Of a DNA stretch of 33,703 nt, positions 8,243 to 24,329 are shown piece after piece (the first letter of the stretch is position 1; every line of letters starts with the position of its first letter). This DNA is from a virus. Position numbers and translations under genes: made by a program. The notes under the pieces are model-generated. The model had not been told where the DNA came from. It did not search any database and saw nothing but the letters and a program-made list of their open reading frames with translations. The stretch spans positions 1 to 33,703 of IMG/VR virus record IMGVR_UViG_3300037450_000152; one strand, written 5' to 3'.

Positions 8243-9265
8243 ATGGTAAGAATAGTGAATTGGTTGTTGACAAGGAGATGTAACTTAAGTTGTGATTATT
8301 GTGGAATTGTTAAAAACTATCCTGATATGCCTCAAGAGTATCCTCTTATGAGTCATTATGTAAAAAATGAAATGACTACAAAGCAAGTTATAAAAGGATT
8401 AGACCAATTTCAGTTGCATAATCCAGATTGCTTTCACATCTTCTACGGAGGTGAACCATTATTAAGGAAAGATTTAGCTGATATCATCAACCACTGCAAT
8501 GACAATGATATTCACTACACGATAATATCAAATAATACAAACCAGATTATTCCATTGATTGATAAGTTATTTGATGAGGTAGCATACATTCAAGGATTTA
8601 CAGCATCTGTTGATCCATCATTTAATGAGAAAAATAGGTTTGACAGAATAATAAAAAGCATATCTGGTTTTGAAAATCTTTTAAGACTTAAAGATCGTAT
8701 CAATGATGTTGTTGCTGAAATAACTGTTATGAGACACAATGTAAATCAGCTATATACGCTTGTTAAATTATTAACAGAAAATGGTATAAGTAGTGATATA
8801 ACATTTGTTGATATAGCGAAAAGTCCATTTTATGATTTCTCAAATATAGCTGATGAAAACTTATTGGTAGAACGATCTTCTGAATTAGGTGATGTTTTTA
8901 GTTCATTACAAAATAGTGATTTAGATATTCATATGAAAGATATTTTACTACCGAAGATATGGGAAATTCTTCCATCTGATTTAGATTGTGAATTAGAGAA
9001 AGATCTTCATAATGTAACCGTTGATGCAGATGGAACGATTAGATTGTGTTTAAGGATAAGAGGAACTCATGCTCCAAAATTAGTTAAGGTAGCAAATTTA
9101 ATTGATTCAAAAGGTAACATATCATTTATTGCACAAAAGGCAATTGCAAAAGATAAAGAAGTTCATTGTCAAGGATGCAATCACACATGCTTATTGATGA
9201 GTAAACATATTAATGAAACAGATCAAGGGACTGAGGATTTAATTCACCTTGACAGGAGGGTATAA
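8243..9265 (+). CDS. Radical SAM protein with SPASM/twitch-like C-terminus
   Basis: A 340-aa radical SAM enzyme. The [4Fe-4S]-AdoMet motif is CNLSCDYC (Cys13, Cys17, Cys20), followed by FYGGEPLL, the GGE SAM-binding motif. The C-terminal region has further cysteines (CLRIRG and CQGCNHTC), suggesting an auxiliary Fe-S cluster of the SPASM or twitch kind. That architecture is typical of peptide- or protein-modifying radical SAM enzymes. It is much longer than QueE (about 210 aa) and has this extra cysteine cluster, so I do not assign it to the preQ0 step despite queD and folE2 in the window. The substrate is unknown; no obvious precursor peptide adjoins it. GGGGGA precedes ATG 8243. Confidence 0.85.
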   Translation: MVRIVNWLLTRRCNLSCDYCGIVKNYPDMPQEYPLMSHYVKNEMTTKQVIKGLDQFQLHNPDCFHIFYGGEPLLRKDLADIINHCNDNDIHYTIISNNTNQIIPLIDKLFDEVAYIQGFTASVDPSFNEKNRFDRIIKSISGFENLLRLKDRINDVVAEITVMRHNVNQLYTLVKLLTENGISSDITFVDIAKSPFYDFSNIADENLLVERSSELGDVFSSLQNSDLDIHMKDILLPKIWEILPSDLDCELEKDLHNVTVDADGTIRLCLRIRGTHAPKLVKVANLIDSKGNISFIAQKAIAKDKEVHCQGCNHTCLLMSKHINETDQGTEDLIHLDRRV

Positions 9266-9267
9266 AA

Positions 9268-9585
9268 ATGGCAGCAGAAGAACAGATTAGAAATGCAATA
9301 AAATTTTGGGAGACTATCTATGAAGCTGGAGAAGGAACAGTTCGATTTATTAAAAAAAGTGGAAATGCTCGAACTATGAATTGTACATTAGATTTTAGTA
9401 AGATTCCTCAACAGCATCATCCCAAGAGTGTTAATATGGCAAAGATATTAAAGTTAATGCAAAAAAATGGAATAATCCACGTCTATGATTTAGATAAAAA
9501 AGATTGGAGGTCAATTCCATTTGAAAAAGTAGATTGGTTGGAAACCGCCAATAAACGATATAAAATTGTACCTTATAAAAGATAG
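9268..9585 (+). CDS. WYL_2/DUF2693-like small protein
   Basis: A 105-aa protein with the pattern of the DUF2693 (renamed WYL_2, Sm/SH3-barrel-like) family: VRFIKKSGNARTMNCTL around residues 25-41 and VYDLDKKDWRSIPFEKV near the C-terminus. Members are small, mostly phage-borne and poorly characterised; an SH3-type beta barrel that binds nucleic acid or protein is the usual suggestion. It starts at ATG 9268 after AGGAGG, two bases after the radical SAM gene. The assignment is from remembered motif shape only. Confidence 0.6.
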   Translation: MAAEEQIRNAIKFWETIYEAGEGTVRFIKKSGNARTMNCTLDFSKIPQQHHPKSVNMAKILKLMQKNGIIHVYDLDKKDWRSIPFEKVDWLETANKRYKIVPYKR

Positions 9586-9593
9586 GAGCATAT

Positions 9594-9974
9594 ATGGGAA
9601 TTATAGATCAACTTTTAAAGGAAATACCATCAGATGATATTACAATACAGATTAAAGAAATGTGTAATAAAATATGGGAAGAAGAAAAGGATAAGATAAA
9701 AAAATATCATCACGTATTACCAAGTGGAGCAAATATATTTCTTGCATTACAAGTTCCCGCTAAAGCTAAAAGAGATGTATCATTTTTAACATTGGAAAGA
9801 GATCCGATGGATGAATATATCTCTAATTACTATTCAATAAAAGAAACTGATATACAAAAGGCAGACCTACCTCAGATGCCAAGAAGATATCAATCTCATA
9901 GACTTGAGGGAAGATCATCAAAAAAGATCTTAATTGAATTTGCAAAACTTGTAAAATTTTATAGAGGGGAATAA
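9594..9974 (+). CDS. 126-aa hypothetical protein
   Basis: An unrecognised soluble protein starting at ATG 9594 after TAGGAG. The N-terminal half is helical and charged; the middle has a beta-rich segment (GANIFLALQVPAKAKRDVSF) and the C-terminus is basic (RRYQSHRLEGRSSKK). It ends three bases before the 884-aa E2-like gene, so it may be part of the Ubl operon, but nothing in its sequence shows a related function. Confidence 0.7.
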   Translation: MGIIDQLLKEIPSDDITIQIKEMCNKIWEEEKDKIKKYHHVLPSGANIFLALQVPAKAKRDVSFLTLERDPMDEYISNYYSIKETDIQKADLPQMPRRYQSHRLEGRSSKKILIEFAKLVKFYRGE

Positions 9975-9977
9975 CGA

Positions 9978-12632
9978 ATGGATATGAAGAAAGATATATT
10001 TGAAGACTTTGATATTCGTATCAATAGAAAATTTACATCCCTATTACTTTCGAACCAAAAAGAAGGAACATCATATGAAGATCATACACAAGCAATACCA
10101 ACGAAACGACTAAAAATATTACCAACCTCAGAATATCTTAAAAAATATAAAACATTAACAGTACAATCTCCAACGATTTTACCTCCAGGTTGTAGATATA
10201 TTGAATCAACTCAAAAGGGAGGAAAAATATATGTTATTGAGGAACCACCACAATTTAGAACAGTAGCAATGGCATTAAGTTTTGATATTATGTATGAAGA
10301 AATAAGGGCAAATGGATTATTAAAAGAATATGGTATTGAAGGTTGGTTATCAACTTGTTCTAAAAATAGAGATGAAAGTTATTTTAAATTAAATCTAGCA
10401 TTTCCATATGTTATATTTCTGTTCTATTTAACTGAAAATAGAAATGTTTCTCTAGGTTATTCTTTTTTAAGAACTAATCAAATGGTAGGTTTATCTGATT
10501 ATCTTATAAAAATGCCATTGACAAATATTTCAGAGAGTCAAAAGATATGTTTTGGTAATCGACTTAATGATACAGAATATAAAACAGATTTCGAAGCAAT
10601 CGCATCAGCAATTGATGTATTTTGGACAAGTATTTTTAATGTAGATTATACATATAATATTAAATCATATAGTAATGTTGCAGGAATATCAAACTTTTTA
10701 GAATGGCAATATCTATCAAGAAAAGATCCAATGTTTATATATCGAGTTGACTGGATTAAATATAAAAAAAATATTTTTGAACTTATTAATCATGTAAAAG
10801 GTTTTTCTCATGGTAACAATCGAGGAACTGATTATGAAACTGGTGGTGATATTTATAATTCATTCTTAAATACTTTTACAAAACCTGCAGTCATTGCTGA
10901 AATTGAAAAAGGAAAGATTCGAAAGAAAATTGTACGGATTTATTATGATATTGCTAGTGGTTATTATTTAAATGCATTGCTTAAAATAGAGGTTGGTGAT
11001 TCATTTGAAAATGTAAAAAAGACAAAAAAATATTATATAATCTCATTCATTGGTATGAAAGGACAAAATCCATCAATCATAAGACTTTCATTAAATGAAA
11101 AACTCTTTAACTTCAAACTAACTGTAAAATCAATTGAATATTTAAAAGAAAGGATTGAAGAACAGCGTTATATTAAAACAATTCAAGTTAATGGATTAGA
11201 ACTTAAAGCGAATGATATTATTAAATATAAAGATGCTGCTAGAGCAACAATATATAAAAAAGTTTACTATATTAGAAAATCTTTAGATGATCGACCAGAA
11301 ATAAGACTAGGTAATAGATATTTTTTAGCTCAAAATCTTCCAAAAGGATTGGAGAAAATAGATGTAGGCGATTCTAAAATATATGAAATGGATTTGAAAA
11401 AAGGTGAAGAATATCTCTATTGCCATTCTTATAAATCTAACCACACTATTGTCATGCAAATTGAAAGATGTGTATTTGATGGTATTGATATTGGAGCAGG
11501 TGGTCAATTAATATATAGATTTAAATCTTTAAATAGAGACACAAGAAATCATCTAACAATACCCATAAATGAAATTCAACATATTACATATAGAAAAATA
11601 TTTCCGAAAATAGATAAGTCAACAAGGTGTAACAATCCTCTGGTGCTTTCAACTGGAAGGACTTTAAGAAAATTCACAACTTATACTGATGCAGGACATG
11701 AAGTTCCAGCTTCTATTTATAGATCTCCTACTAATTATTTGTGTGACATTGATACACAAAATCAAAAGGCAGATAAAGAATCAATGGAGTTTCTCGTCAT
11801 AGACGATAAAACATTTGAAGTTGAAACCCATTCTGGTATTATTAGATTTGAAATTGGTGATCTAGTTATAGTTGCAAATTGGACAAATCCTTTAAACATT
11901 CTAAATATTAGAAGAATTGAAGCATTTAAAATAGAAAGAAAGACAAGATCAACCAACATATCATTCATATTAATAGACAAAGCAGGAAATCTAACAGAAG
12001 AGGTTTACGTAAGTGGTAATGTTATTCGTATTGGATATATTAGAAAAATTATCACTAAATTTGAAGGATTATCTTCTGGAACAAAGATAATTGCAACTAA
12101 AGGTAGAATATCAAATTTTCCAAAAAAAGATTACAATATTATAATTGGTATTATTGTTGATGGTCCTAATCCATTAGTCTTATGTTCAAATGGTTGTACT
12201 TTATGGTATCAAGACGTTATGGAAAACTTTAAACAAATTCCAATAACTTCTATAAAATGGAAAAATGCAGATCATGCTGACCTAGAACCAAAGAAAATTA
12301 AACCTCAATCAGGAGACATTACTACAGTTTCTTACAATAGTTCTCCAGGAGAAACAGGTTTTCTAATGATGCAATTAGACCAGTCAAGAGCTCTTAGATA
12401 TCATCAATTATCAGCTTACCATAGATCATATGATAGTTATAGCGCATCCAGTGATAAATTATTTCAAGAGGAATGTATATTCAACTGTATACCAAACCCA
12501 AGAATTTCAAAATCTCAACAAGATAAAATTGGATATGTTCGTGCAACCCCTAACTTCCATGGAGGTTTTATTCTGAATGATAAGTCAAAATTCCTCTATG
12601 TAAATGACCCAAGGAGCTTTATTAATGTTTAA
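9978..12632 (+). CDS. Large protein with probable E2-like (PRTRC-B/Prok-E2_D-like) N-terminal domain
   Basis: An 884-aa protein. Residues about 50-200 follow the layout I associate with prokaryotic E2-like domains of the PRTRC protein B type: SPTILPPGCRYI, a hydrophobic strand pair (FPYVIFLFYLT), then KMPLTNISESQKICFGN, matching a P-L-x-N...C-x-G-N active-site loop with candidate Cys191. The remaining about 600 residues are beta-rich and unrecognised, with several short strand-turn units (for example SGIIRFEIGDLVIVANW) that could be SH3/KOW-like barrels. There are no membrane segments. It precedes and overlaps the JAB gene by 8 bases and lies in line with E1, Ubl and a second E2-like gene, which supports a Ubl-transfer or scaffold role. 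The E2 assignment is an inference from motif pattern; a structural protein is the alternative. Confidence 0.55.
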   Translation: MDMKKDIFEDFDIRINRKFTSLLLSNQKEGTSYEDHTQAIPTKRLKILPTSEYLKKYKTLTVQSPTILPPGCRYIESTQKGGKIYVIEEPPQFRTVAMALSFDIMYEEIRANGLLKEYGIEGWLSTCSKNRDESYFKLNLAFPYVIFLFYLTENRNVSLGYSFLRTNQMVGLSDYLIKMPLTNISESQKICFGNRLNDTEYKTDFEAIASAIDVFWTSIFNVDYTYNIKSYSNVAGISNFLEWQYLSRKDPMFIYRVDWIKYKKNIFELINHVKGFSHGNNRGTDYETGGDIYNSFLNTFTKPAVIAEIEKGKIRKKIVRIYYDIASGYYLNALLKIEVGDSFENVKKTKKYYIISFIGMKGQNPSIIRLSLNEKLFNFKLTVKSIEYLKERIEEQRYIKTIQVNGLELKANDIIKYKDAARATIYKKVYYIRKSLDDRPEIRLGNRYFLAQNLPKGLEKIDVGDSKIYEMDLKKGEEYLYCHSYKSNHTIVMQIERCVFDGIDIGAGGQLIYRFKSLNRDTRNHLTIPINEIQHITYRKIFPKIDKSTRCNNPLVLSTGRTLRKFTTYTDAGHEVPASIYRSPTNYLCDIDTQNQKADKESMEFLVIDDKTFEVETHSGIIRFEIGDLVIVANWTNPLNILNIRRIEAFKIERKTRSTNISFILIDKAGNLTEEVYVSGNVIRIGYIRKIITKFEGLSSGTKIIATKGRISNFPKKDYNIIIGIIVDGPNPLVLCSNGCTLWYQDVMENFKQIPITSIKWKNADHADLEPKKIKPQSGDITTVSYNSSPGETGFLMMQLDQSRALRYHQLSAYHRSYDSYSASSDKLFQEECIFNCIPNPRISKSQQDKIGYVRATPNFHGGFILNDKSKFLYVNDPRSFINV

Positions 12633-14217
12633 AATTATAGTCGCTGACGGAAAACAAGAATTACCCGATGATGATATTTATTATATAGTCGCAAAAGAGG
12701 GTATCTATATTAAAAAGAAATTGGGAATAATGGATAGTGTATCACCTGTAAAAAATATTTCAATATTAGAAAGTGTTCAAGCAACAGCAAAGATGAACAT
12801 TGAAAAGATACCAGCAATAGCTGTAGCTAAAATAGCTAATTTCTTTCGTGCTATTCAAAAGCAGCATAGATCAGAGGCAATTGTAATATTATTTTATAAT
12901 GAAGAAACTAAAAAATACAAGTTAGTTCCACCATCACAAAAAGTTACACCTGGAGGTATTGAATATAATAGATCAATTGTTATAGATGGTTGGACAATGA
13001 TTGGCGATATTCATAGTCATAGTTCAATGTCTGCATTTCATTCAGGAACAGATCAGGGGGATGAGAATTCTTTCGATGGACTTCATATTACATTTGGAAA
13101 TATGGATTGTGAATTTATAAGTATTTCAGCTTCAATTGTTTCAAATGGAAATAGAGTGATGATCAAACCAGAAGAATATATGAAAGGGACAGAGTTAAAG
13201 CAGGAAGTTGATGAAATTGAAAAAATTCCCACCACCAGGATTTATAAATGGGTAGACGGAAAAATGGTCGAAGAGACTCCAAATTATCAAACCAAAGGTT
13301 TTAAAACTTATCGAAGATATGATAAACGATACAAAATAATCAGTGAAAATACTGTTAAAGCTAAAGTACCAGATTCATGGTTGAGTAAAGTTGAGTATGG
13401 TATACAACATATCTATGGAAATTCCAAGCTTGAAAATGTATGGCAAAATTATTATCAAGGTGGTCAATGGGCACGTGGTCGATGGACTGGACATAATAAT
13501 AGAGGATGGAATGAAAATTTTGATCCAACTGTATGGAATAAAGATAAAATTTCTAAACCCAATGTACCACCTCAAAATGTTGGAGTTAAAACTGAACCTA
13601 TTAAATTTCCACCACATAAACAAGGTCCATTTGTCACTGACGTAACTCCTCCAGAAAAACCCATTCCTTGTGAATCTTGTGCATTCAGAGAAAGAGCACC
13701 TGAATTTGTTGCTAAATTATTAGTAGAACAAAACGATGGAATAATTGAGGAAGAGATCAAGTGGCCAGGTTGGTCAGAAAAAGAAATATATGAATGTGAA
13801 AAATGTAACATAGTCATAACATTTAACTATAATGATCGAGGCGAAATTGAAGATGAAATATTATGTCCATCTTGTAACTCAGACGATCATCTAACTATGA
13901 TTGATATGGATGATGATAGAAATTATTCTTCTAATTCAGAAATTGATGGAAGAATCAGTTGTAAAACTTGTGGTAGTGCTTTTGATTCAACAATGCTTCA
14001 AACCGATGATGCTGGCGGTTCTTGTCCATTCTGTGGAACATTATTATCACCTAAAGAAAATCTAGAAAGTATATCTGAAAAAGATATTGCTGAATATCAT
14101 GCAGAAAAAGAAAATCCAGATCCAAGCAATATGATACCAGATCCTGATCAAAATATTAATAAACGAAAAGTGAATCCATTGGAATGGATGTTTGGAAAAT
14201 TTGGGAGGAGAATATGA
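12625..14217 (+). CDS. JAB/JAMM metallopeptidase with C-terminal zinc ribbons
   Basis: A probable Ubl-specific deconjugating or maturing protease of 530 aa. The JAMM zinc motif is perfect: HSH (His130, His132), seven residues, then SGTD (Ser140, Asp143). The upstream catalytic Glu is probably one of those in the EAIVILFYNEE region. A Gly/Trp/Asn-rich linker (about 265-330) leads to cysteine pairs at 349/352, 391/394 with 414/417, and 446/449 with 467/470, giving two zinc ribbons plus one orphan CxxC. ATG 12625 is chosen over ATG 12604 because AGGAG (12611-12615) lies between them at the right spacing. It ends in an ATGA-type overlap with the E1-like gene. In PRTRC-type loci JAB proteins accompany E1, E2 and Ubl genes. 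The ribbon-bearing tail is unusual. Confidence 0.85.
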   Translation: MFKIIVADGKQELPDDDIYYIVAKEGIYIKKKLGIMDSVSPVKNISILESVQATAKMNIEKIPAIAVAKIANFFRAIQKQHRSEAIVILFYNEETKKYKLVPPSQKVTPGGIEYNRSIVIDGWTMIGDIHSHSSMSAFHSGTDQGDENSFDGLHITFGNMDCEFISISASIVSNGNRVMIKPEEYMKGTELKQEVDEIEKIPTTRIYKWVDGKMVEETPNYQTKGFKTYRRYDKRYKIISENTVKAKVPDSWLSKVEYGIQHIYGNSKLENVWQNYYQGGQWARGRWTGHNNRGWNENFDPTVWNKDKISKPNVPPQNVGVKTEPIKFPPHKQGPFVTDVTPPEKPIPCESCAFRERAPEFVAKLLVEQNDGIIEEEIKWPGWSEKEIYECEKCNIVITFNYNDRGEIEDEILCPSCNSDDHLTMIDMDDDRNYSSNSEIDGRISCKTCGSAFDSTMLQTDDAGGSCPFCGTLLSPKENLESISEKDIAEYHAEKENPDPSNMIPDPDQNINKRKVNPLEWMFGKFGRRI

Positions 14218-14900
14218 CAGAACTATCTATTAAAATTATTGGACTTGGTGGTGTTGGTTCAGTATTATGTGAAAAGATTTCTAGATTTTTAAATTATGCT
14301 ACAAATATACAAGCAAGTTTATTACTTGTTGATGGCGACACATATGAAAGCAAAAATTACCAAAGGCAGGAATTCACACAAATGGGAAATAAATCCGAGA
14401 TCAAAGGTGGAGATCTAGAAGATAAATTCCCAAATATAAATTTAGATTATTATCCTGCGTATATAAATGAGACAAATATTAATGATGTTATAAAGACAGG
14501 AGATATTATATTTCTATGTGTTGATAATCACAAGACCAGAATGATCACATCCAAATACTGTAATAATTTAAATGATGTTACTTTGATTTCTGGTGGGAAT
14601 GAATTTACAGATGGTAATGTACAAATTTATGTCAGAAAGGGGGGAAAAGATTTAACACCTGACCTATGTGCTTATCATCCAGAGATTGCAAATCCCGACG
14701 ACAAATTACCTGAAGAAATGAGTTGTGAAGAGTTAGCAAACTCAGAACCACAACTTTACTTCACAAATGTATGGGTAGCTACACTAATGTGTGCTGCATT
14801 CTATAACGTAGTTATTAAAAATTCAATTGGGGCATCAGAAATTTATTTCGATATGATACAGATGTCAACAATTGCACAAACAAGAGCACTTAAATTATAA
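14214..14900 (+). CDS. E1/ThiF-like Ubl-activating enzyme
   Basis: Predicted to adenylate the C-terminus of a Ubl protein. The Rossmann nucleotide loop is GLGGVGS (10-16), and the E1 signature VDGDTYESKNYQRQEF supplies Asp40, Asp42, Asn48, Arg51 and Gln52. FLCVDNHKTR (100-109) matches the DN..R segment. Cys171 in EEMSCEELANSEPQ is the best candidate for the thioester cysteine, in the place where PRTRC ThiF-type proteins have a conserved SC. At 228 aa this is a minimal single-domain E1 with no rhodanese or extra catalytic domain. ATG 14214 has GGGAGGAG just upstream and shares ATGA with the JAB stop; an upstream ATG at 14184 inside the JAB gene is not used. Confidence 0.88.
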   Translation: MTELSIKIIGLGGVGSVLCEKISRFLNYATNIQASLLLVDGDTYESKNYQRQEFTQMGNKSEIKGGDLEDKFPNINLDYYPAYINETNINDVIKTGDIIFLCVDNHKTRMITSKYCNNLNDVTLISGGNEFTDGNVQIYVRKGGKDLTPDLCAYHPEIANPDDKLPEEMSCEELANSEPQLYFTNVWVATLMCAAFYNVVIKNSIGASEIYFDMIQMSTIAQTRALKL

Positions 14901-14932
14901 CCTAAAATAGAGAATACAGGAGAATTACAATC

Positions 14933-15421
14933 ATGGCAAATGAATATAATAGAGCGAATCTTGAAGAAATGACGGTAAAAGAACTCCGTCGTCTATGCGT
15001 TGATAAACTGGGAATTCCCGGTATGACCAAAAAGCGTAAAGATATTGTCGTTGACGCTATTTTGAAACTGCAAGGTCCATCAAAAGGACCCAAACCATCC
15101 AAGACCTCCATCAAACCACCCATCAAGACAGGTCCAATTACAGAAATGGATTTTACTGGAAAAAGTATTCTGAAAAGACCATATGGAGCATTTGGAGCAA
15201 AAATGGATACCACAATTCAGGTATCTTGTGGTGCTAGTTCGGGAGCTTTTCCAGTTGAAGGAAAAAGCGTTCGAGAGGTTGGAGAATTTCTCAGAGAGGT
15301 TCTCAACGTGGACAAATTATCAACCGGACTGGTAAATGGCAAAGAAGTGCAGGGAGACTATAAACTCAGATCTGGAGATAGTTTAGAGTTTATGAAACCT
15401 TCTGGGCGTAAAGGTTGTTAA
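14933..15421 (+). CDS. SAP domain-ubiquitin-like fusion protein ending in Gly-Cys
   Basis: A 162-aa two-domain protein. Residues 10-44 (LEEMTVKELRRLCVDKLGIP and on, with TKKRKDIVVDAIL) fit a SAP-type DNA-binding helix-extended-helix. A Pro/Lys linker (47-68) follows. Residues 92-157 read as a beta-grasp Ubl/MoaD/ThiS fold: TTIQVSCG strand-turn, a helix KSVREVGEFLREVL, then LVNGKEVQGDYKLRSGDSLE, the NGK..dy.L..GD pattern of ThiS, MoaD and PRTRC-C proteins. The tail is SGRKGC, so Gly161 is followed by one Cys, which could be the conjugation end or be removed by the JAB protease. It lies between two E1-like genes with its own ribosome binding site (AGGAG). This is the likely modifier of the system. 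Confidence 0.75.
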   Translation: MANEYNRANLEEMTVKELRRLCVDKLGIPGMTKKRKDIVVDAILKLQGPSKGPKPSKTSIKPPIKTGPITEMDFTGKSILKRPYGAFGAKMDTTIQVSCGASSGAFPVEGKSVREVGEFLREVLNVDKLSTGLVNGKEVQGDYKLRSGDSLEFMKPSGRKGC

Positions 15422-15434
15422 ATCTGATGTCTAC

Positions 15435-15470
15435 GGATGGGGATTCTTATGGATTCCCATCCATCTCTTT
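15435..15470 (+). terminator. Hairpin after the SAP-Ubl gene, probable terminator or attenuator
   Basis: A 12-bp stem (15435-15446 with 15451-15462, two G-T pairs) closes a TTAT loop; the arms are GGATGGGGATTC and GGATTCCCATCC. It is followed by ATCTCTTT, a weak pyrimidine tract. It lies in the 67-base gap between the Ubl gene and the second E1-like gene. Full or partial termination would raise Ubl mRNA relative to the downstream genes; 3'-end protection is an alternative. Confidence 0.65.
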
Positions 15471-15488
15471 CAAAGGAGATCTTAATCG

Positions 15489-16391
15489 TTGAAATTTAAT
15501 AGCATAACAATAATCGGAACAGGAACATTAGGAGGACATCTTTGTAAACATCTTGCTGAAAGTTCAGAAATAAATAAGTTAACGTTAGTTGATCAGGATT
15601 TAGTTGATTCAAAAGATACAGAATTGGGTATTTTTAAACCGGTGGATATACTTGAACCAAAAGTTCACGTTCTCTATCGAATGTTTTCTAGTTATAAAAT
15701 CGAAATTGAACCGATAGTAAAATTTTATAAAGAAGGTATTACATTATTACCATCATCTGATCTTACAATTGATTGTCGAAATGTATTTGGAAAAAGAGAT
15801 CTAAATATTGATATAAAAATGTTTATAACAGATAGGCTCTTGGTATTAGATTTTCAGAAAAAATATAAAGATGAAAATCAACTTAAGGGTGAGTATCGTC
15901 TTAAATTGTCAAAACATGAAATAAGCACAGCTGCATATTATGCTACAAATTTAATAACTTGTGATAATATTTTGGAGGAACTATTAAAAAGTAGATCAGT
16001 AAAATATATTGACATTGATATAATTAAATCAACCATGTCGCAAAGTATAAATGATTCAAAACAAAAATGCGATCTAATTTATGATTTAGACGAAGATACT
16101 AGGAGATTAAAAAGAGTTAATGAAATTGTACAACCAATAATAAAAAAGAATAAAGAAAGACCTCTAAAATTAGCAGTCAAAGAGAGAGATTCAATCGTTA
16201 GAAATGTTTTTGAATTTCCAAAAGTAGCAGAGACAACATATCAAATAATACCACAGAATACTTTAAAGAATTCTAAAGACGTGATTGATGTTTTGAGAAT
16301 AGCTGTCAAAGACATGGAAGATGTTTCTAAAATTATTCCGGTCCTTATGCATGACAAAATTTATATTTTACGCGAAACAGGAGGTGCTTGA
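15489..16391 (+). CDS. Second, degenerate E1/ThiF-like protein
   Basis: A 300-aa protein with a ThiF-like N-terminus: IIGTGTLGGHL (8-18, glycine loop) and LVDQDLVDSKD (33-43, Asp35, Asp37), then a GIFKPVDILEPKVHVL segment comparable to the ..DIG..K.. stretch after the E1 nucleotide loop. The Asn and Arg-Gln residues that contact ATP in the first E1 are missing, and no cysteine stands out as catalytic, so it may be an inactive partner, as in heterodimeric E1s such as AOS1-UBA2. The C-terminal half is helical, basic and unrecognised. Translation begins at a TTG (15489) with AAAGGAGAT upstream; no better ATG is near. It joins the E2-like gene through a TGATG overlap. Confidence 0.65.
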   Translation: MKFNSITIIGTGTLGGHLCKHLAESSEINKLTLVDQDLVDSKDTELGIFKPVDILEPKVHVLYRMFSSYKIEIEPIVKFYKEGITLLPSSDLTIDCRNVFGKRDLNIDIKMFITDRLLVLDFQKKYKDENQLKGEYRLKLSKHEISTAAYYATNLITCDNILEELLKSRSVKYIDIDIIKSTMSQSINDSKQKCDLIYDLDEDTRRLKRVNEIVQPIIKKNKERPLKLAVKERDSIVRNVFEFPKVAETTYQIIPQNTLKNSKDVIDVLRIAVKDMEDVSKIIPVLMHDKIYILRETGGA

Positions 16392-16852
16392 TGGGTAATG
16401 AACATCAACATAAACATATACACATACCCGCTGATTTGAATATTCAAGCTCCATCTATTGATTTTAATATTTACTATATAACAATAATTCCAAGAGGTGG
16501 TATAGAAAATGGGATTCCATTTAAAATAACTTCCATTAGTGAGTTCTACCATATAAAAGCATTTCATATTACAACTTATAATAATAGATTAAGACAAGTT
16601 GGAATAGTTGGAAGACATCCTAATGCAAATCCTGATACAGCATTTCTTTGTTTATCAGATTATTTCATAGGTAAAGAAGTTTCAGATATTGAGAAACTTA
16701 TAAGGGATATAGTTATTATCATTCAAAGTTATGATCTTGATGATGCTTTTTTTAAACCAAAACGAGATTCATATATCAGAGAATCACTTGATACTGCATA
16801 CATTGCTAATTATAAAGAAAGGAACTATAGATTATGGAGGAAAAACCAATAG
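16391..16852 (+). CDS. Compact E2-like (UBC-fold) Ubl-conjugating protein
   Basis: A 153-aa protein predicted to carry the Ubl as a thioester. The clearest feature is GRHPNANPDTAFLCLSDYF (74-92): HPN followed by CLS with Cys87, the same order as the eukaryotic E2 signature HPN...CL. Strands before it (FNIYYITIIPRG and FYHIKAFHITTY) and amphipathic helices after it (VSDIEKLIRDIVIIIQSY) fit the UBC/RWD fold. The N-terminus is His-rich (EHQHKHIHI). ATG 16391 with AGGAGGT five bases upstream is preferred to the TTG at 16388. It is translationally coupled to the degenerate E1-like gene. A catalytically silent RWD protein is possible, but the Cys and the preceding His are both kept. Confidence 0.7.
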   Translation: MGNEHQHKHIHIPADLNIQAPSIDFNIYYITIIPRGGIENGIPFKITSISEFYHIKAFHITTYNNRLRQVGIVGRHPNANPDTAFLCLSDYFIGKEVSDIEKLIRDIVIIIQSYDLDDAFFKPKRDSYIRESLDTAYIANYKERNYRLWRKNQ

Positions 16853-17034
16853 ATAGTTATATTCGAGAAATTATTGAAGAATCTATTGAAAAACATGACT
16901 GGGGAATAAAGAAAGAAGATGCACAACAAATTATTGAAATCTTAGTTCCAACGATTGATAAAATGATATCACATAGAATAAAACAACATTTACGATTCCT
17001 AGCAACCAATTTGATAGATTCGCTAACCCCATAG
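16834..17034 (+). CDS. 66-aa hypothetical protein
   Basis: A small helical protein (MEEKPIDSYIREIIEESIEK at the start) that overlaps the E2-like gene by 19 bases and ends 15 bases before the rpoC-like gene. AAAGG about 10 bases upstream supports ATG 16834. Alternating hydrophobic and charged residues predict two or three helices. It might belong to the Ubl operon or be a small RNA polymerase accessory, but nothing in the sequence decides this. Confidence 0.65.
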   Translation: MEEKPIDSYIREIIEESIEKHDWGIKKEDAQQIIEILVPTIDKMISHRIKQHLRFLATNLIDSLTP

Positions 17035-17049
17035 GAGGAGAAATTCAGG

Positions 17050-19734
17050 ATGCCAAAGATACTCAATTATCAAGAATTTTGTGAACCATTAGACGAAGTG
17101 ACGTCTCTAAAAGTAATAGCAAAAAAGAAGTTTCATCCTGAAGGTCTATTTTCAGAGCAAATCTTTGGACCAGTTAAGAATTATACTTGTCAGTGTGGAA
17201 CATATTATGGACCATCTAATGTAAAAACTGGTAGTAAATGCAATTTATGTAAAGTTGATATTGTAAATAGTGATGTAAGGAGAACAAGATTTGCAAAAAT
17301 TATTCTACCATTTCCAATAGTAAATCCTCTATTTTATGATCTATTAGTTGAGGTTGCTGGAAAGAGTATAAAATCAGCTTTAGATGAATTGATGAGAAAT
17401 GAAAAAAGTTATATGTATATTGATGGTATTGAACATGTGGTTTCATCAGATGACACACCAAATCTAACATCTAAAACACTCTATGAAAGAACAGATGCAA
17501 TTTATAAATTGATCAGTGATGTTGCACAAGGATTAGCAAAAGAAGGAATTCAAGAATGGAAAACAATATTACAAAATATTGATTCGCTTTTAATCAATCA
17601 AGTAATTGTATTACCTCCAGACTTAAGACCTGTTTCAAGAGGTGGTGCTGGAAAGCATCTAATGGACAAAATTAATAGATATTATGTTCAGATTCTAACT
17701 AATAAAACTTTAATGCAAGGAACGGTTCTAAACGTTCAGAGAGATAAAAATTTATATTATACATATTTTAAACAAATACAGAAAAATATCAATGAACTTT
17801 ATAATAGAATTCTTGAAAAAATGGCAAAGAAGGAAGGTTTAATTCGTGGGAATATTTTAGGAAAAAGAATAGACTTCTCTGGTCGAGCTGTGATAACTCC
17901 AGATCCTTCTTTGTCATTAAATGAATGTAAGCTTCCATATTTTATGGCATTAGAAATATTTAAACTTCCAATTGCAAAACGAATAATTGAAATAGGAAAA
18001 TTTAAATTATTAAATAATGCGTTAGATTTTGTTGACAAATGTATTGACTTTAAAAAACCAGATCTTTTCAATATATGTAAAGAAACAGTTGAAGGTGAAC
18101 TATGTATATTAAATAGACAACCATCTCTTCATAGACTTGGAATGTTAGGATTTAAAATTTTAATTACATCTGATCATGTTATTAAAATTCATCCACTGGT
18201 ATGTGCTCCATTCAACGCGGATTTTGATGGAGATCAAATGGCAGTTTATATTCCTATTACACAAGATGCTAAACTTGAAATATTTGAAAAAATGTTACCG
18301 TCTCAAAATTTAAACAGTCCATCAAATGAAAATCTAACAACAATTCCCAGTCAAGATATTATATTAGGAATTTACTTTCTAACCACAGGAGTTTTCGATG
18401 GTCAACTGGATGATACAAATGGTTTAAATATTTTCAATGATATACTTCCAAATAATTATCCAAGAATTGAAGAATCTATAAATGAAAAGAAGCTTTTATT
18501 TATTCTAAATGATATAAAAGATTCTTATCCAACTGACGTAGTTGTTAAGGTTTTAGATAAAGTTAAATCAATTGGATTTACATATGCAACATTATTTGGT
18601 TGCACTATGTCATTAGAAAATTTTCAAACTAAACAATTAACAGATTTAAGAGATATAATATATTCAAAAAATACAATTAGAGATCAATTAGTAGCATTAT
18701 CAAATAAAGGAATCATAAAAACTTTAAGAAATAGTTTTGAATATTCATATATGATTGAGTCTGGTGCTAGAGGTAGCTGGGATCAAGTAAAACAGATTAT
18801 CATGACCAGAGGTTTTGTATCAAATTTTGATGGGGAAATCTTGCCAATCCCTATCAAACATAATTTAGTTGAGGGATTAACTGAAAAAGAATTCTTCTAC
18901 TCAACATATGGATGTCGAAAAGGTCTTCTTGATATAGCATTAAATACAGGAACATCAGGTTATCTTTCAAGAAAATTAATTTTCACTTGTGCCAATCTAC
19001 AGATTGATACAGAATTAAATGATTGTGGAACAACTGATCTTCTTGAAGTTTATGTTAAAACTGAAAGAAAAGCTAGAATGTTAATTAATAGATATCAATT
19101 TATTAAAGAAAAATTACAAATTATCACCAAAGAAAATTATAAAGATATAATTGGAAAAACAATTTGGATAAGAAGTCCAATATTATGTAAAGCTCCTAAA
19201 TTGTGTCATACGTGTTATGGAGATTTATACAAAAAATTAAATAGTAGATTTGTTGGAATAATTGCTGCACAAACCCTTGGTGAGAGAGGAACTCAATTGG
19301 TGCTTAGAACTTTTCATACATCAGGTTCAGCTGTTATACAAGGAGAAGATTCAGAAAATGATTCATTAAAACAGAAAGATATTATTGGAGATTTAGCAAC
19401 TGTATCACAGCTTCTTCACAAGTTTAAAAATAAAATGTATAGTAATATAGTTGAAGAATTATTTGAAGTATATAATAAGGACATTTATCATGTTCACTTT
19501 GAATGTGTTGTTGCTCAATTAATGTGGAAAGAACAGAAAAAATGGAGACTTTTAAAAGATAGACATTTATTCTCACCAGATTATTATTCAATACAATCAG
19601 TTCCAAATCGAGAAAGTTGGATATTAGCAATGGCATTTTCAAATCCAAAAAGAAGTATTTTACAAGGGATTATCAACCAAGGAAAATACTCAGGTATAAT
19701 GGATAAGATTCTAAAAGGGGAAAGAATATCATGA
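17050..19734 (+). CDS. Phage RNA polymerase beta'-like subunit, single chain
   Basis: The catalytic large subunit of a phage multisubunit RNA polymerase. Visible beta' landmarks: GLFSEQIFGP (32-41), zinc site CQCG...CNLC (Cys47, 49, 64, 67), LGKRIDFSGRAVITPDP, NRQPSLHRLGMLG, the active-site magnesium motif NADFDGDQM (389-397; Asp391, 393, 395), RGSWDQVKQI (from 574), GCRKGLLDIALNTGTSGYLSRK (trigger-loop region), a second Cys cluster (DCGT...LCHTC) and AAQTLGERGTQL...FHTSG. At 894 aa it is much shorter than bacterial beta' (about 1200-1400) yet holds the core regions in one chain, unlike phiKZ-type phages where beta' is split. GGAGGAG precedes ATG 17050. Confidence 0.94.
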   Translation: MPKILNYQEFCEPLDEVTSLKVIAKKKFHPEGLFSEQIFGPVKNYTCQCGTYYGPSNVKTGSKCNLCKVDIVNSDVRRTRFAKIILPFPIVNPLFYDLLVEVAGKSIKSALDELMRNEKSYMYIDGIEHVVSSDDTPNLTSKTLYERTDAIYKLISDVAQGLAKEGIQEWKTILQNIDSLLINQVIVLPPDLRPVSRGGAGKHLMDKINRYYVQILTNKTLMQGTVLNVQRDKNLYYTYFKQIQKNINELYNRILEKMAKKEGLIRGNILGKRIDFSGRAVITPDPSLSLNECKLPYFMALEIFKLPIAKRIIEIGKFKLLNNALDFVDKCIDFKKPDLFNICKETVEGELCILNRQPSLHRLGMLGFKILITSDHVIKIHPLVCAPFNADFDGDQMAVYIPITQDAKLEIFEKMLPSQNLNSPSNENLTTIPSQDIILGIYFLTTGVFDGQLDDTNGLNIFNDILPNNYPRIEESINEKKLLFILNDIKDSYPTDVVVKVLDKVKSIGFTYATLFGCTMSLENFQTKQLTDLRDIIYSKNTIRDQLVALSNKGIIKTLRNSFEYSYMIESGARGSWDQVKQIIMTRGFVSNFDGEILPIPIKHNLVEGLTEKEFFYSTYGCRKGLLDIALNTGTSGYLSRKLIFTCANLQIDTELNDCGTTDLLEVYVKTERKARMLINRYQFIKEKLQIITKENYKDIIGKTIWIRSPILCKAPKLCHTCYGDLYKKLNSRFVGIIAAQTLGERGTQLVLRTFHTSGSAVIQGEDSENDSLKQKDIIGDLATVSQLLHKFKNKMYSNIVEELFEVYNKDIYHVHFECVVAQLMWKEQKKWRLLKDRHLFSPDYYSIQSVPNRESWILAMAFSNPKRSILQGIINQGKYSGIMDKILKGERIS

Positions 19735-19910
19735 GAAGTTCAAAACGAATACCTGAATTGTTAAGAATAATATCGAAGATCTGGTATAAATATCCGGACC
19801 TTCGATTAGGTCAACTAATATTAAATGGTTGTCCGACAGATGCAGGATTATATTATATGGAAGATGAAGATCTTATAGAAAATTTAAAAAGATCCTATGA
19901 GGAGGAATAA
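19731..19910 (+). CDS. 59-aa small protein between the RNA polymerase subunit genes
   Basis: A short gene sharing an ATGA junction with the end of the rpoC-like gene (ATG 19731) and ending two bases before the rpoB-like start; GGGGAAAG is its ribosome binding site. The sequence contains PDLRLGQLILNG...YYMEDEDLIENL, a pattern I recall from a widespread family of small phage and bacterial proteins of unknown function that begin R.P.....L..IW...PDLRLGQL. No catalytic role is known. The tight position may mean co-expression with polymerase rather than a polymerase function. Confidence 0.75.
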   Translation: MRSSKRIPELLRIISKIWYKYPDLRLGQLILNGCPTDAGLYYMEDEDLIENLKRSYEEE

Positions 19911-19912
19911 AT

Positions 19913-22900
19913 TTGAAATTAATCAATCCAATTTTTAAAATTCAAGATAAAGATAATAATATCTTTACCATTCGTGAAAAGGATCAAAAAGAAATCTTAT
20001 TTGTAGCAAGAGAGATATTACAACCTGCAATAGATTTAGGGTTCACATTAAATGAACTTACTTTAAAAGATTCTAGATTTTCATCTGGAGAATTATCTAA
20101 AACAGTTAAACAAACTCTTGCAATTAAATTACAAAAAGCAACTTCCCATATTGATTTAAGTTTACATATTCCCAAATTAGTGGATAATAATTATATCATA
20201 ATTAATGGACGTAGAAAAATTCCTCTTTTTCAATTATTTGATATTCCAGTTGTAACAAGAGGAGAAAATATTAAACTGCGAACTAATGTAGCAACCCTTA
20301 TGATTTTAAAAGATAGAGATCCTCCATTTGTTAAAGTAAGTTTCTTAGGAAAGAAGGTTCCTCTATCAATACTAATGTTTGCATATTATGGTATTGATGT
20401 AATGATAGCAAATCCTGAATTAGATCTTCCAAATGTTAAAGTTGAAGATTTAAATCAAGAAAACTTAATGGACTTATTAATACATGATTGTAAACTTATA
20501 TATAACGAATTACAAAGTAATACAACACAAGATGATTTTATTCTAGAAATTGGTAGGGTTTATTCAAAATATAATTCTAAATCCAAGGGACATGATATTA
20601 TTTATGCTCTTGACTTAATCCCTCAAGTTGATATATTTACAAGAGCTTTCTTACAAACGGGATCATTATTAGAAGAATTAATTGATACAATTAAAGGTGG
20701 AGAAATAGATGATATATTATTTACAAATAAAAGAGTAAGATGTTTTGAATATATGATCTTCTCCAAGTTATCAAAAATTATATTTGATCTATGTTTTTCA
20801 AATCGAACTACCAAACAACCAAAATTTAATACAAATTCAACTCAAATATTAACTGAATGTAATGTATCAGACATTGTCCAATTCGATTTTTCAATCAATC
20901 CAATTGAGGAATTAACAAAGCTTTCAAGGATAAGTTTATTAGGACCTGGTGGATTTAAAAGAGAAAATATTCCAAAGCACCTAAGAGATATATGCCCCAC
21001 AATGTTTGGTCGTTTATGTCCAGTAGACACCCCAGATCGCGATAACTGCGGTGTATTACAAAACCTAATACCTAATGTCAAGTTAGACGAACATCTCCGA
21101 TTTACTAATGATATATGCGAGAATCAACCTATTTCAATACCTGTATCATTCACTCCATTCTGTGAACATGATGATCAGACAAGATTACAAATGGCAGCAT
21201 CTCAAATGAGACAAGCAATTATGTTAAAAGAATTTGAACAACCTATGATCAAATCAGGTTGTGAAGGTTTATATACAGATCATACTCAATTTATTAAACG
21301 TGCAAAAAAGAATGGTGAAGTTGTTTATCTTGATGAAAAATATTTAATGGTTGTATATGAAGATAAAACAGTTGAAATTTTTGATGTCGCATATAGAAAT
21401 ATTTATGTTGAGCATATGGATACAGTAAAACTTTATGTCAATGTTGGAGATAGATTTAAAGCTGGAGAAATATTAGCTGAAAGTAATTTTATTCAAAATG
21501 GAGAAATTACTTTTGGAAAGAATTTATTAACAGGTGTGATGGTTTATTATGGACATAATTATGAAGATGGTATTATTATATCTGATAGATTAGTCAAAGA
21601 TGATATATTCACATCAGTTCATTTTAAAGATTTATCATTTACAATTCCCCCAAATAAAGTTTTATTATCTTTATCAGATTCCGAATATAAACCATTGCCA
21701 GATCCTCTTGAACTCATTCGCATGGGGAAACCATATGCAATTTTAAAAACTATTTCATCTGACGATTTATATTCAATTTTTACAGAGCGTATTAAATTAG
21801 AAGCAGAGAAAACATTTATAATACCTAGTATAAAAGTTTATGCAAATGATTGGAATAAAGATATACCTGAATATAAGGAATGGGTCGAAAAAACTATTAA
21901 AAAACAACAGGAAAAGGAAACAGGTCTAAGACAAATTATTAAAGAAAAATTACCAAGAGATCTTGCTGTAAAATTCATAAGACAAAAAGATTTAGAAATC
22001 TTTTCATTTATTGGTAAATATAAAAATAAGAAAGAAAAAATAAATGGAATCTATGTTGAAATGTCTGGAATTTTTCTAAGATCTATCAAGGTTGGAGATA
22101 AGATTGCAAATAGGCATGGAAATAAAGGAGTTATATCTAGAATATTACCACATAAAATGATGCCACAATTGGAAGATGGAAGACATTTAGATATTTGTAT
22201 TAACCCTCTTGGTATCATATCTCGAATGAACATTGGACAATTATTTGAGTTGCATCTATCAATGTCATTGTATCACTTACAGAAAAATATGTTACAGATG
22301 TTAAAAGAAGAAAAAACACAAGAACAAATTAGAAAGTATCTAATAGATTACATTAAAATTATTGACAATACAAAAGAAGGATGGTATGAAGAACAATTTA
22401 CTCAACAGCTTCCAGATACTATTGATGCTTTCTTTATTGAATCATTATCATTAATACAACCTCCATTTGAATCTTGTCATATAGAAGAGTTGGAAAAAGC
22501 ACTAACTTATACTCAAACAGACTTTAAGTATAAAGTATATGATCCAATTGCAAGAAAATTTTTATTAAATGAAGTTGCAGTAGGTCATATATATTTTTTA
22601 AGAATGGTCCATATAGCAGAGGAAAAGTTAGCAGCTAGAGGAATTGGATCATATGCAAAACGAACTTTACAACCATTGGGCGGAAGAAAAAATAAGGGAG
22701 GACAAAGATGTGGTGAAATGGAAACAGCTTGTATCATTGGGCATGACGCTCCAAAGAATTTATTTGAATTTCTAACAACAAAATCAGATTGTATAGATTT
22801 GAAAAACGAGTATATTAGAAGTTATATTAGCACAGGACAACCTCAACATGTGTTGGACAAAATAAATCTAAATCCAATGCCTGAGTCCGTTAAGTTGCTA

Positions 22901-22960
22901 AATTCTTATTTAACAGTTTTAGGAGTAGATCATAATGACAACATCGACAACATTCTATAG
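19913..22960 (+). CDS. Phage RNA polymerase beta-like subunit, single chain
   Basis: A 1015-aa beta-like subunit. Landmarks: LLGPGGFKRE (from 342), MFGRLCPVDTPDRDNCGVLQ (compare bacterial YGRICPIETPEGPNIGLI), GDKIANRHGNKGV (728-740, the lysines that contact RNA and the active centre), LPHKMMPQLEDGRHLD, INPLGIISRMNIGQLFELH and, near the end, KLAARGIGSYAKRTLQPLGG...GGQRCGEMET, then LTTKSD. All the core regions are on one chain, while phiKZ-like phages split beta. No alpha, omega or sigma gene is seen in the window. Translation starts at TTG 19913 after GAGGAGG; there is no ATG nearby. It follows the beta' gene, the reverse of the bacterial rpoB-rpoC order. Confidence 0.94.
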   Translation: MKLINPIFKIQDKDNNIFTIREKDQKEILFVAREILQPAIDLGFTLNELTLKDSRFSSGELSKTVKQTLAIKLQKATSHIDLSLHIPKLVDNNYIIINGRRKIPLFQLFDIPVVTRGENIKLRTNVATLMILKDRDPPFVKVSFLGKKVPLSILMFAYYGIDVMIANPELDLPNVKVEDLNQENLMDLLIHDCKLIYNELQSNTTQDDFILEIGRVYSKYNSKSKGHDIIYALDLIPQVDIFTRAFLQTGSLLEELIDTIKGGEIDDILFTNKRVRCFEYMIFSKLSKIIFDLCFSNRTTKQPKFNTNSTQILTECNVSDIVQFDFSINPIEELTKLSRISLLGPGGFKRENIPKHLRDICPTMFGRLCPVDTPDRDNCGVLQNLIPNVKLDEHLRFTNDICENQPISIPVSFTPFCEHDDQTRLQMAASQMRQAIMLKEFEQPMIKSGCEGLYTDHTQFIKRAKKNGEVVYLDEKYLMVVYEDKTVEIFDVAYRNIYVEHMDTVKLYVNVGDRFKAGEILAESNFIQNGEITFGKNLLTGVMVYYGHNYEDGIIISDRLVKDDIFTSVHFKDLSFTIPPNKVLLSLSDSEYKPLPDPLELIRMGKPYAILKTISSDDLYSIFTERIKLEAEKTFIIPSIKVYANDWNKDIPEYKEWVEKTIKKQQEKETGLRQIIKEKLPRDLAVKFIRQKDLEIFSFIGKYKNKKEKINGIYVEMSGIFLRSIKVGDKIANRHGNKGVISRILPHKMMPQLEDGRHLDICINPLGIISRMNIGQLFELHLSMSLYHLQKNMLQMLKEEKTQEQIRKYLIDYIKIIDNTKEGWYEEQFTQQLPDTIDAFFIESLSLIQPPFESCHIEELEKALTYTQTDFKYKVYDPIARKFLLNEVAVGHIYFLRMVHIAEEKLAARGIGSYAKRTLQPLGGRKNKGGQRCGEMETACIIGHDAPKNLFEFLTTKSDCIDLKNEYIRSYISTGQPQHVLDKINLNPMPESVKLLNSYLTVLGVDHNDNIDNIL

Positions 22961-23357: not shown

Positions 23358-23479
23358 TCACCGATCAACCAGAACTATTATTTGAATGTTCAAATGATAG
23401 AGAACATTATTTTCATATACCTGAAGGATGGGAAGAAAATATTAGAGAAGAATTTTATAGAGGAGCATATTATGAGTGA
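23234..23479 (+). CDS. 81-aa protein with CxxC motif, overlapping two genes
   Basis: A small protein starting at ATG 23234 (GGAG nine bases upstream), with CSIC (Cys8, Cys11), then DIHKG and, later, LFECSNDREHYFH, so Cys and His residues could hold one zinc ion. It overlaps the preceding ORF by 124 bases and the folE2 start by 8. The ordered Cys/His pattern and the close fit to folE2 make it credible. A small folded metal-binding protein is the best description; its function is unknown. Confidence 0.55.
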   Translation: MFKTGYCSICKGEITIRYHTPDKNFTIRNGQITRNDIHKGMITDQPELLFECSNDREHYFHIPEGWEENIREEFYRGAYYE

Positions 23480-24329
23480 TAATGAATGCCTTCCAGATAT
23501 ACAATGTACAGCTCCAGCATTACAAACTGCTATTAAGCAAGTCGGAGTTGAAAATGTTGAGGTCCCGTTTACCTTGGAATCTAAAAATGGTGGATTTCAT
23601 CAGTTAACAGCAAATGTTACAATGATGACCAGCTTGGATAAAACCACAAAAGGGATCTCAATGTCTAGATTGTTATTAACATTAAAACCATATCTAGAAC
23701 TTCCGTTGAAAAGTAAATTAATTAGAGAAATCATTGAAAAGATGTTAGAGAATGTTGGAGGCACATCAGCATTTATGAGATTTGAATTTAGGTTACCAAG
23801 AAAAATAAAATCAATTAAAAGTGATAACATATTTCCAATCTATTACAAATGTAAATTTGAGGGACAGGTGTATAAAGATAATTCCAATGAAAAATTTAGA
23901 TTCTTTCAAGGAGTCACAGTTCAGTATGCATCTTATTGTCCATGCTCTGCTGAACTATGTAATGTATTAGATGAAAGTGGATTTCCTCATAATCAAAGAT
24001 CATTTGCACATATATTAACAGAAATAGATACTGAATCTCATTATGTTTGGTTAGAAGATATAATTGATGCAGTTGAGAATAATATAAATACATTACCTTA
24101 TCCAATAATAAAAAGAGTAGATGAGCAAGAGATTGCTAGAGTTGCAGCAGAGAATCCAATGTTTGTTGAAGATGCAATTAGAATTATATCTGATTCTATT
24201 GATAACATACCAGGTATAACTGATTGGATTATAAAATGTATCCATGAAGAATCCATACACACATCTGAAGCAATAGCAGTTAATTGGAAAGGTATTATCC
24301 AAGGATTTGATGGAAGGCGATATATTTAG
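23472..24329 (+). CDS. folE2: GTP cyclohydrolase IB (FolE2)
   Basis: Converts GTP to 7,8-dihydroneopterin triphosphate, the entry step to folate and to 7-deazaguanines. FolE2 signatures: LPDIQ near the start, the early V-G-V..V..P strand, TKGISMSRLL (compare KGTHMSRF) and the metal/active-site segment YCPCSAELC...FPHNQRS with Cys156, Cys158 and His173. Its 285 aa match the family. ATG 23472 with AGGAG six bases upstream is preferred to an in-frame ATG at 23382. It is unrelated to FolE (type IA), and is told from QueF by the CPCS...HNQRS segment. With QueD it supplies the first two steps toward preQ0. FolE2 enzymes can work with metals other than zinc, which may free the phage from host FolE limits (inference). 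Confidence 0.92.
   Translation: MSDNECLPDIQCTAPALQTAIKQVGVENVEVPFTLESKNGGFHQLTANVTMMTSLDKTTKGISMSRLLLTLKPYLELPLKSKLIREIIEKMLENVGGTSAFMRFEFRLPRKIKSIKSDNIFPIYYKCKFEGQVYKDNSNEKFRFFQGVTVQYASYCPCSAELCNVLDESGFPHNQRSFAHILTEIDTESHYVWLEDIIDAVENNINTLPYPIIKRVDEQEIARVAAENPMFVEDAIRIISDSIDNIPGITDWIIKCIHEESIHTSEAIAVNWKGIIQGFDGRRYI

Follow-up and report, generated by a model that had tools for sequence, protein, structure and literature searches.

What does a phage do with a set of genes for ubiquitin-like protein conjugation? In bacteria, systems built on a ubiquitin-like protein (Ubl) have been recognised chiefly as antiviral defences or as plasmid cassettes that are still uncharacterised. The question is raised here by six adjacent genes, located between positions 9978 and 16852 of a stretch of viral DNA, namely positions 1 to 33,703 (33.7 kb) of the IMG/VR virus record IMGVR_UViG_3300037450_000152. 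This whole stretch is referred to hereafter as the window. In order, the genes encode an E2 (conjugating enzyme)-like protein, E2D; a JAB/JAMM metalloprotease, JAB; an E1 (activating enzyme)-like protein, E1a; a SAP-Ubl fusion; a second E1-like protein, E1b; and a small E2-like protein, P6. They probably specify a phage-encoded Ubl protein-conjugation cascade, a variant expanded in phages and related to the plasmid PRTRC cassette, which corresponds to operon type 6d of Iyer et al. 2006 (PMC1779556). An initial annotation, made from the DNA letters, had read the locus as a Ubl-conjugation gene set. That reading is supported by profile recognition of all the component families, by a gene order kept in 57 of 61 relatives, and by catalytic residues that vary scarcely or not at all across dozens of sequences. 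What was observed directly is which genes are present, how they are ordered, how far they are conserved, and which catalytic motifs they encode.

All features of the module and of its immediate neighbours lie on the + strand. The genes extend from 9978 to 12632 (E2D), 12625 to 14217 (JAB), 14214 to 14900 (E1a), 14933 to 15421 (SAP-Ubl), 15489 to 16391 (E1b), and 16391 to 16852 (P6), and the six open reading frames (ORFs) are present where the initial annotation had placed them. Start codons that fit both the relatives and the ribosome-binding sites are found at 9978, 12625, 14214, 14933, 15489 (a TTG), and 16391, with a Shine-Dalgarno-like stretch ahead of each gene. The overlapping junctions described earlier, ATGA at 14214-14217 and TGATG at 16389-16393, are indeed there.

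Searches with E1a and the Ubl returned dozens of contigs with the same gene order. The sampling bias of such queries was removed by a scan in which relatives were gathered by the β′ subunit of the phage RNA polymerase, rather than by E1 or Ubl, and which yielded 61 distinct contigs whose upstream DNA was long enough; most of the relative contigs are fragments. The order JAB-E1a-Ubl-E1b-P6 was the same in 57 of these 61. Conservation of the gene order had been set beforehand as a point on which the reading could fail, and the count of 57 indicates that the module is core phage equipment. Accessory cargo is ruled out by the same scan, and chance or mis-called ORFs by conservation and synteny in dozens of relatives. 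Apart from contig L180, which is considered below, the exceptions are L181, with no module genes, L186, with the four-gene core only, and L195, with a distant arrangement. Core-only contigs lack the SAP domain, E1b, and P6 alike, and the three were thus gained or lost together. A strict link between the module and a phage polymerase was rejected, in that no phage Rpb1_2 match was obtained in three core-only contigs, of which one is 340 kb long. Assignment of a host from contigs binned into metagenome-assembled genomes was also abandoned, as the bins were inconsistent (Thermoplasmatales, Falkowbacteria, Woesearchaeota, and Neisseriaceae). A match to Acinetobacter phage MD-2021a (CAKLQH020000004.1, L119) was set aside because the surroundings of its moeB resemble a bacterial chromosome.

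Among isolated phages, JAB matches were found in Salmonella phage Arash, Vibrio phages D69, D181, and D148, and Bacillus phage KLEB27-3, and E1 matches together with the E2-JAB-E1 order in Arash, D69, and KLEB27-3. Unlike the window, these phages show no SAP-Ubl, E1b, or P6, and most annotations of their E2-JAB-E1 genes read hypothetical or structural protein. Two viral contigs of 178-179 kb, L073 and L074, carry a distant JAB-E1 pair and a weak E2D match; a Ubl was not found in the one of them that was searched.

The JAMM motif of the protease, H130-x-H132-x7-S140-x2-D143 as numbered from the ATG at 12625, is encoded at 13012-13053 (HSHSSMSAFHSGTD). It is exactly the perfect motif that had been claimed, and its two histidines, serine, and aspartate, along with an upstream glutamate, are found in 57 of 57 relatives. 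The protein matches TIGR03735 PRTRC_A at 5.4e-15 with 55.5 bits, below the NCBIfam cut-off of 101.8 bits, and Pfam Prok-JAB at 0.001. Five CxxC pairs in its C-terminal tail (13669-14034) resemble zinc ribbons and are invariant in 12 close relatives; the tail is shortened or lost in distant ones.

E1a is of the active ThiF/E1 type. It matches Pfam ThiF at 5.3e-20 (ORF 14184) and, over nearly its full length, PRTRC_ThiF at 5.4e-8, the score of 32.4 bits lying below the cut-off of 144.75 bits. It contains GLGGVG, DGD, N-x2-R-Q, a lysine, VDN, and, in numbering from the ATG at 14214, Cys171; the Asp/Asn/Arg/Gln set noted earlier is thus in place. In ORF numbering, R61, Q62, D114, and C181 are invariant in 56 sequences; C181 is equivalent to Cys171, the candidate catalytic cysteine (14724-14726). 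Profile searches of the PDB matched the E1a family to UBA5 and MoeB, and the matches of both E1s include Cap2 and BubCD. E1b matches ThiF at 1.4e-8 (ORF 15489) and is homologous to E1a (hhalign, 2.4e-11). The arginine and glutamine occur at its active positions in 0 of 50 sequences, and its sole conserved cysteine sits in a core strand, leaving no candidate catalytic cysteine. Given the absence of the Arg-Gln pair and of the catalytic cysteine in all 50, E1b is probably a pseudo-E1, that is, a non-catalytic partner. The E1-like genes are accordingly doubled as first described, with the qualification that the usual catalytic residues are absent from the second.

The Ubl is composed of an N-terminal SAP/Rho_N-like domain (14951-15073), a linker, and a predicted β-grasp domain (15194-15418) that ends in a G-x-K-G tail followed here by a single cysteine (G-R-K-G-C). 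The Rho_N match of the window protein is 5e-5. Among 12 family members, Rho_N was matched in 11, TGS in 12, and ThiS in 10, with best values of 5e-5, 6e-4, and 7e-4, respectively. The SAP domain is absent from the Ubl of core-only relatives. The description of this protein as ending in Gly-Cys holds for the window, where the last residues are R-K-G-C, but the cysteine is not general: in 32 of 55 relatives the protein finishes with ...KG, and in 16 of 55 one more residue follows. In some relatives (L046, 5037-5477; L159, L160, L175, and L196), an extra SAP-bearing protein that has no Ubl domain is encoded immediately ahead of E2D.

The overall architecture of E2D, a protein of 884 residues, is bipartite. 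Its E2-like domain, about residues 70-255, matches Pfam Prok-E2_D at 0.003, and the profile was matched in 11 of 12 family members, the best at 5e-5. An active-site-like segment, P180-x2-N183...C191, is encoded at 10515-10550, with N183 and C191 present in 47 of 47 sequences; the position of the downstream histidine of type 6d is filled by N221/D223. An AlphaFold2 model (predicted local distance difference test score, pLDDT, of 86.9) displays a strand-loop-Cys-helix order. The C-terminal portion, about residues 304-880 (10887-12617), is modeled as a tandem array of Tudor/KOW/SH3-like barrels, in which Gly-Asp motifs are repeated at G340-D341, G627-D628, and G779-D780. The best Foldseek matches, SPT5, the AGDP3 Agenet domain, and the SETDB1 Tudor domain, have low TM-scores and all fall on this array, which in contig L125 is a 717-residue gene of its own, apart from the E2-like half. 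The label of E2-like given earlier to the entire protein therefore applies to about its first third and not to the rest.

P6 carries the HPN and downstream cysteine that had been pointed out, encoded at 16616-16651, the cysteine being Cys87 as counted from the ATG at 16391. Conservation is 49/49 for the histidine, 49/49 for the cysteine, 48/49 for the proline, and 47/49 for the asparagine. In the AlphaFold2 models of both P6 (pLDDT 86.8) and E2D, a helix starts 13 residues past the cysteine. When the P6 profile was run against the PDB, where E2s make up ∼316 of 177,635 sequences, two of three matches were E2s, aligned at HPN..C. An HPN..C stretch also occurs in formylmethanofuran dehydrogenase, as noted in the same search. 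Alignment of P6 with four E2s by hhalign scored 30, versus a maximum of 17.8 in 100 column shuffles, over the active-site stretch only; of the four E2 sequences, UBE2D2 was checked against the PDB. From these motifs and profiles and the helix spacing, P6 is likely an E2. Naming it by Pfam was rejected, since UQ_con was matched in just 2 of 49 members (best 0.006), too weak alone, as was the idea of an internal duplicate of the E2D domain, for which hhalign aligns both active sites without significance (P 0.13). The rough ratio of nonsynonymous to synonymous substitution rates (dN/dS) for P6 is 0.8-1.1, the fastest of the set, although it comes from two comparisons at ∼30% identical alignment and is hence uncertain. 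Rough values for E1a, the Ubl, and β′ are 0.09-0.23 (about 0.1 for E1a), which indicates strong purifying selection on these three. A value near 1 is compatible with an E2 that meets fast-changing partners.

The window belongs to a large tailed phage, and its other genes include gp46/gp47, a UvsW-type helicase, a topoisomerase, QueD, FolE2, and a terminase-like gene. The module is placed between recombination genes and RNA polymerase genes. Directly upstream (8243-9974) are conserved neighbours, syntenic in relatives, for a radical-SAM protein, a WYL_2 Sm-like protein, and a 126-residue protein. Most relatives also have the radical-SAM gene (8243-9265 in the window) upstream of the module; its best matches, all below cut-offs, are NirJ/PapB/PqqE-type enzymes. 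The 126-residue protein (9594-9974) belongs to no known family and ends in ...YRGE, the ...RGE being kept in 11 of 12 relatives. Small proteins starting MKIK-x-DF[VI]TNSSS[ST]S[YF] are often encoded just 5′ of the radical-SAM gene in relatives (L029, 2843-3223; L033, 2566-2949; L035, 2622-3005; L123, 2393-3467; L180, 5921-6256; and others); they are possibly substrates or carry a common N-terminal signal. A conserved small helical protein (16834-17034) separates P6 from the phage RNA polymerase β′ and β genes (17050-22960), recognized by their Pfam Rpb1 and Rpb2 domains. In each of the two largest close relatives, G001 (L011) and G002 (L014), two polymerase genes bear Rpb1_2, so that these phages probably have two RNA polymerases. 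The QueD-like (PTPS) gene at 2458-2901 and the FolE2 gene at 23382-24329 suggest a phage 7-deazaguanine pathway.

From these sequences we infer conjugation and every one of its reaction steps. JAB would cut the Ubl back to G-x-K-G where residues follow, such as the single cysteine here. E1a would adenylate the terminal glycine with ATP and then form a thioester on Cys171, and E1b would be its partner without itself catalysing, as is the case for the inactive adenylation half of BilD and of E1s in eukaryotes. The Ubl could then be passed to the cysteine of P6 and/or E2D, which would attach it to target proteins, and JAB may remove it from them. That the target proteins sit on nucleic acid or on transcription complexes would be a guess, and one that may well be wrong; it is prompted by the SAP domain that the tag carries, by the Tudor/KOW-like array of E2D, and by the constant location of the module ahead of the polymerase genes. 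The fullest picture, a large phage clade with a complete and essential Ubl pathway in which a split active/inactive E1, two E2s, and a DNA-binding modifier tag transcription and nucleoid proteins of phage or host in the course of infection, is put forward just as tentatively.

Several observations weigh against such a cascade. With the E2D model, Foldseek gave no UBC-fold match, only the Tudor/KOW-like half being matched, and E2D has neither the histidine of HPN nor the downstream histidine of the PRTRC E2s. The P6 model likewise gave no UBC fold at E≤0.001, a mimivirus E2 appearing at rank 19 (E 0.70, TMt 0.42). The fold check proposed in the initial annotation was thus divided, with motif, profile, and helix spacing favouring P6 and Foldseek finding no UBC for either model. 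There is no E3 in the gene set, and a Ubl was not found in the isolated-phage relatives, Arash included. Lastly, in L180, a 91.9-kb contig, E1b and P6 are kept and the other four genes are absent; P6 may therefore be independent of this Ubl.

That contig could also signify that P6 is no E2 and E1b no E1 partner, the pair having a separate function beside a PRTRC-like four-gene cassette. L186, with the cassette and without the pair, would suit this explanation, as would the Foldseek result for P6 and the HPN..C stretch of formylmethanofuran dehydrogenase. We nevertheless consider it quite unlikely: the hhalign score of P6 with E2s stands well above the shuffles, the E2s among its PDB matches align in register, its HPN...C is near-perfectly conserved, E1b is homologous to E1a, and the SAP fusion of the Ubl tracks both genes. 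A sulfur carrier is more improbable still. Here the Ubl would form a ThiS/MoaD-like thiocarboxylate, activated by E1a and matured by JAB, that serves the radical-SAM, QueD, or FolE2 neighbours; its profile matches are indeed TGS and ThiS, those neighbours are at hand, and JAB-E1-Ubl sets of some operons have been linked to sulfur transfer by Iyer et al. (PMC1779556). Core-only relatives, however, have no radical-SAM gene in the region examined. Protein conjugation fits better than sulfur transfer because the cysteine of the E2-like proteins is fixed and because six large relatives yielded neither a rhodanese nor a cysteine desulfurase.

The remaining explanations concern the purpose of conjugation. 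The Bil system reportedly tags phage structural proteins, and the Ubl here might be a weapon that disables host defence proteins or tags the structural proteins of competing phages. The rapid evolution of P6 around a fixed motif would agree with this, as would the part that CBASS and Bil, both bacterial Ubl systems, play in phage conflict (PMC10097602; PMC11354881). It is judged unlikely, as the position and order of the genes are fixed in nearly all relatives, unlike typical accessory defence cargo, and PADLOC matches are limited to generic E1 domains. We hold similarly low expectations of a virion or assembly role, in which the Ubl would be put on structural or packaged proteins, for example the polymerase, during particle maturation. 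Gp246-Gp248 of Arash (E1, JAB, and E2) were detected by mass spectrometry in purified particles along with RNA polymerase subunits (PMC10585845), yet the same authors warn that enzymes present in large amounts might just remain in preparations of this kind, and Arash is a distant relative in which the Ubl was not found.

Should the conjugation cascade be real, the presence of a complete set as a fixed part of giant-phage core genomes would place bacterial viruses among the users of ubiquitin-style signalling, and would provide a first hint of what PRTRC-type systems do. The natural split into pseudo-E1 and E1 bears on the origin of the eukaryotic heterodimeric E1s, and the fast-evolving P6 makes the question of targets directly testable.

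In the literature searched, which included few subscription papers or preprints, no paper describing a phage E1-E2-JAB-Ubl set was found. Like CBASS Cap2/Cap3 and Bub, the phage set has E1-type domains, a JAB, and the logic of protein conjugation; unlike them, it consists of separate genes with no E1-E2 fusion, and the window contains no cGAS-like gene. With Bil (BilABCD) it shares a Ubl, E1, E2, and JAB. BilD combines inactive and active adenylation halves (PMC11354881), which are perhaps split here as E1b and E1a. In contrast to Bil, these are phage core genes rather than part of a bacterial defence island, and there is a single Ubl domain with a SAP domain. The PADLOC models for Bil and CBASS matched only generic E1-E2 adenylation domains.

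Plasmid PRTRC cassettes have the gene order ParB-E-C-x-F-B-A-ThiF. No ParB is present in the phage module or matched over the cut-off in nine phage records; F gave no match in the nine records, with control genomes silent as well; E was not recognized in the module, no search having been aimed at that family; and the phage Ubls show no significant profile match to PRTRC_C. The phage Ubl follows E1 instead of preceding E2 and bears a SAP domain, the set adds E1b and P6, and E2D carries the Tudor/KOW-like array. Because ParB and F were not found, the PRTRC_A and PRTRC_ThiF scores fall under the NCBIfam cut-offs, and the type 6d histidine C-terminal to the catalytic cysteine is absent from E2D, the set appears PRTRC-related but is not a PRTRC system. 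The likenesses are a weak similarity to Prok-E2_D, PRTRC_A, and PRTRC_ThiF, a PRTRC_C Ubl that also ends in G-x-K-G, and the succession E2D-JAB-E1a, which repeats the order B (E2), A (JAB), ThiF. These profiles and this order support the earlier view that PRTRC is the nearest known arrangement, and that the phage set differs in its SAP-Ubl fusion and in having two E1-like and two E2-like proteins.

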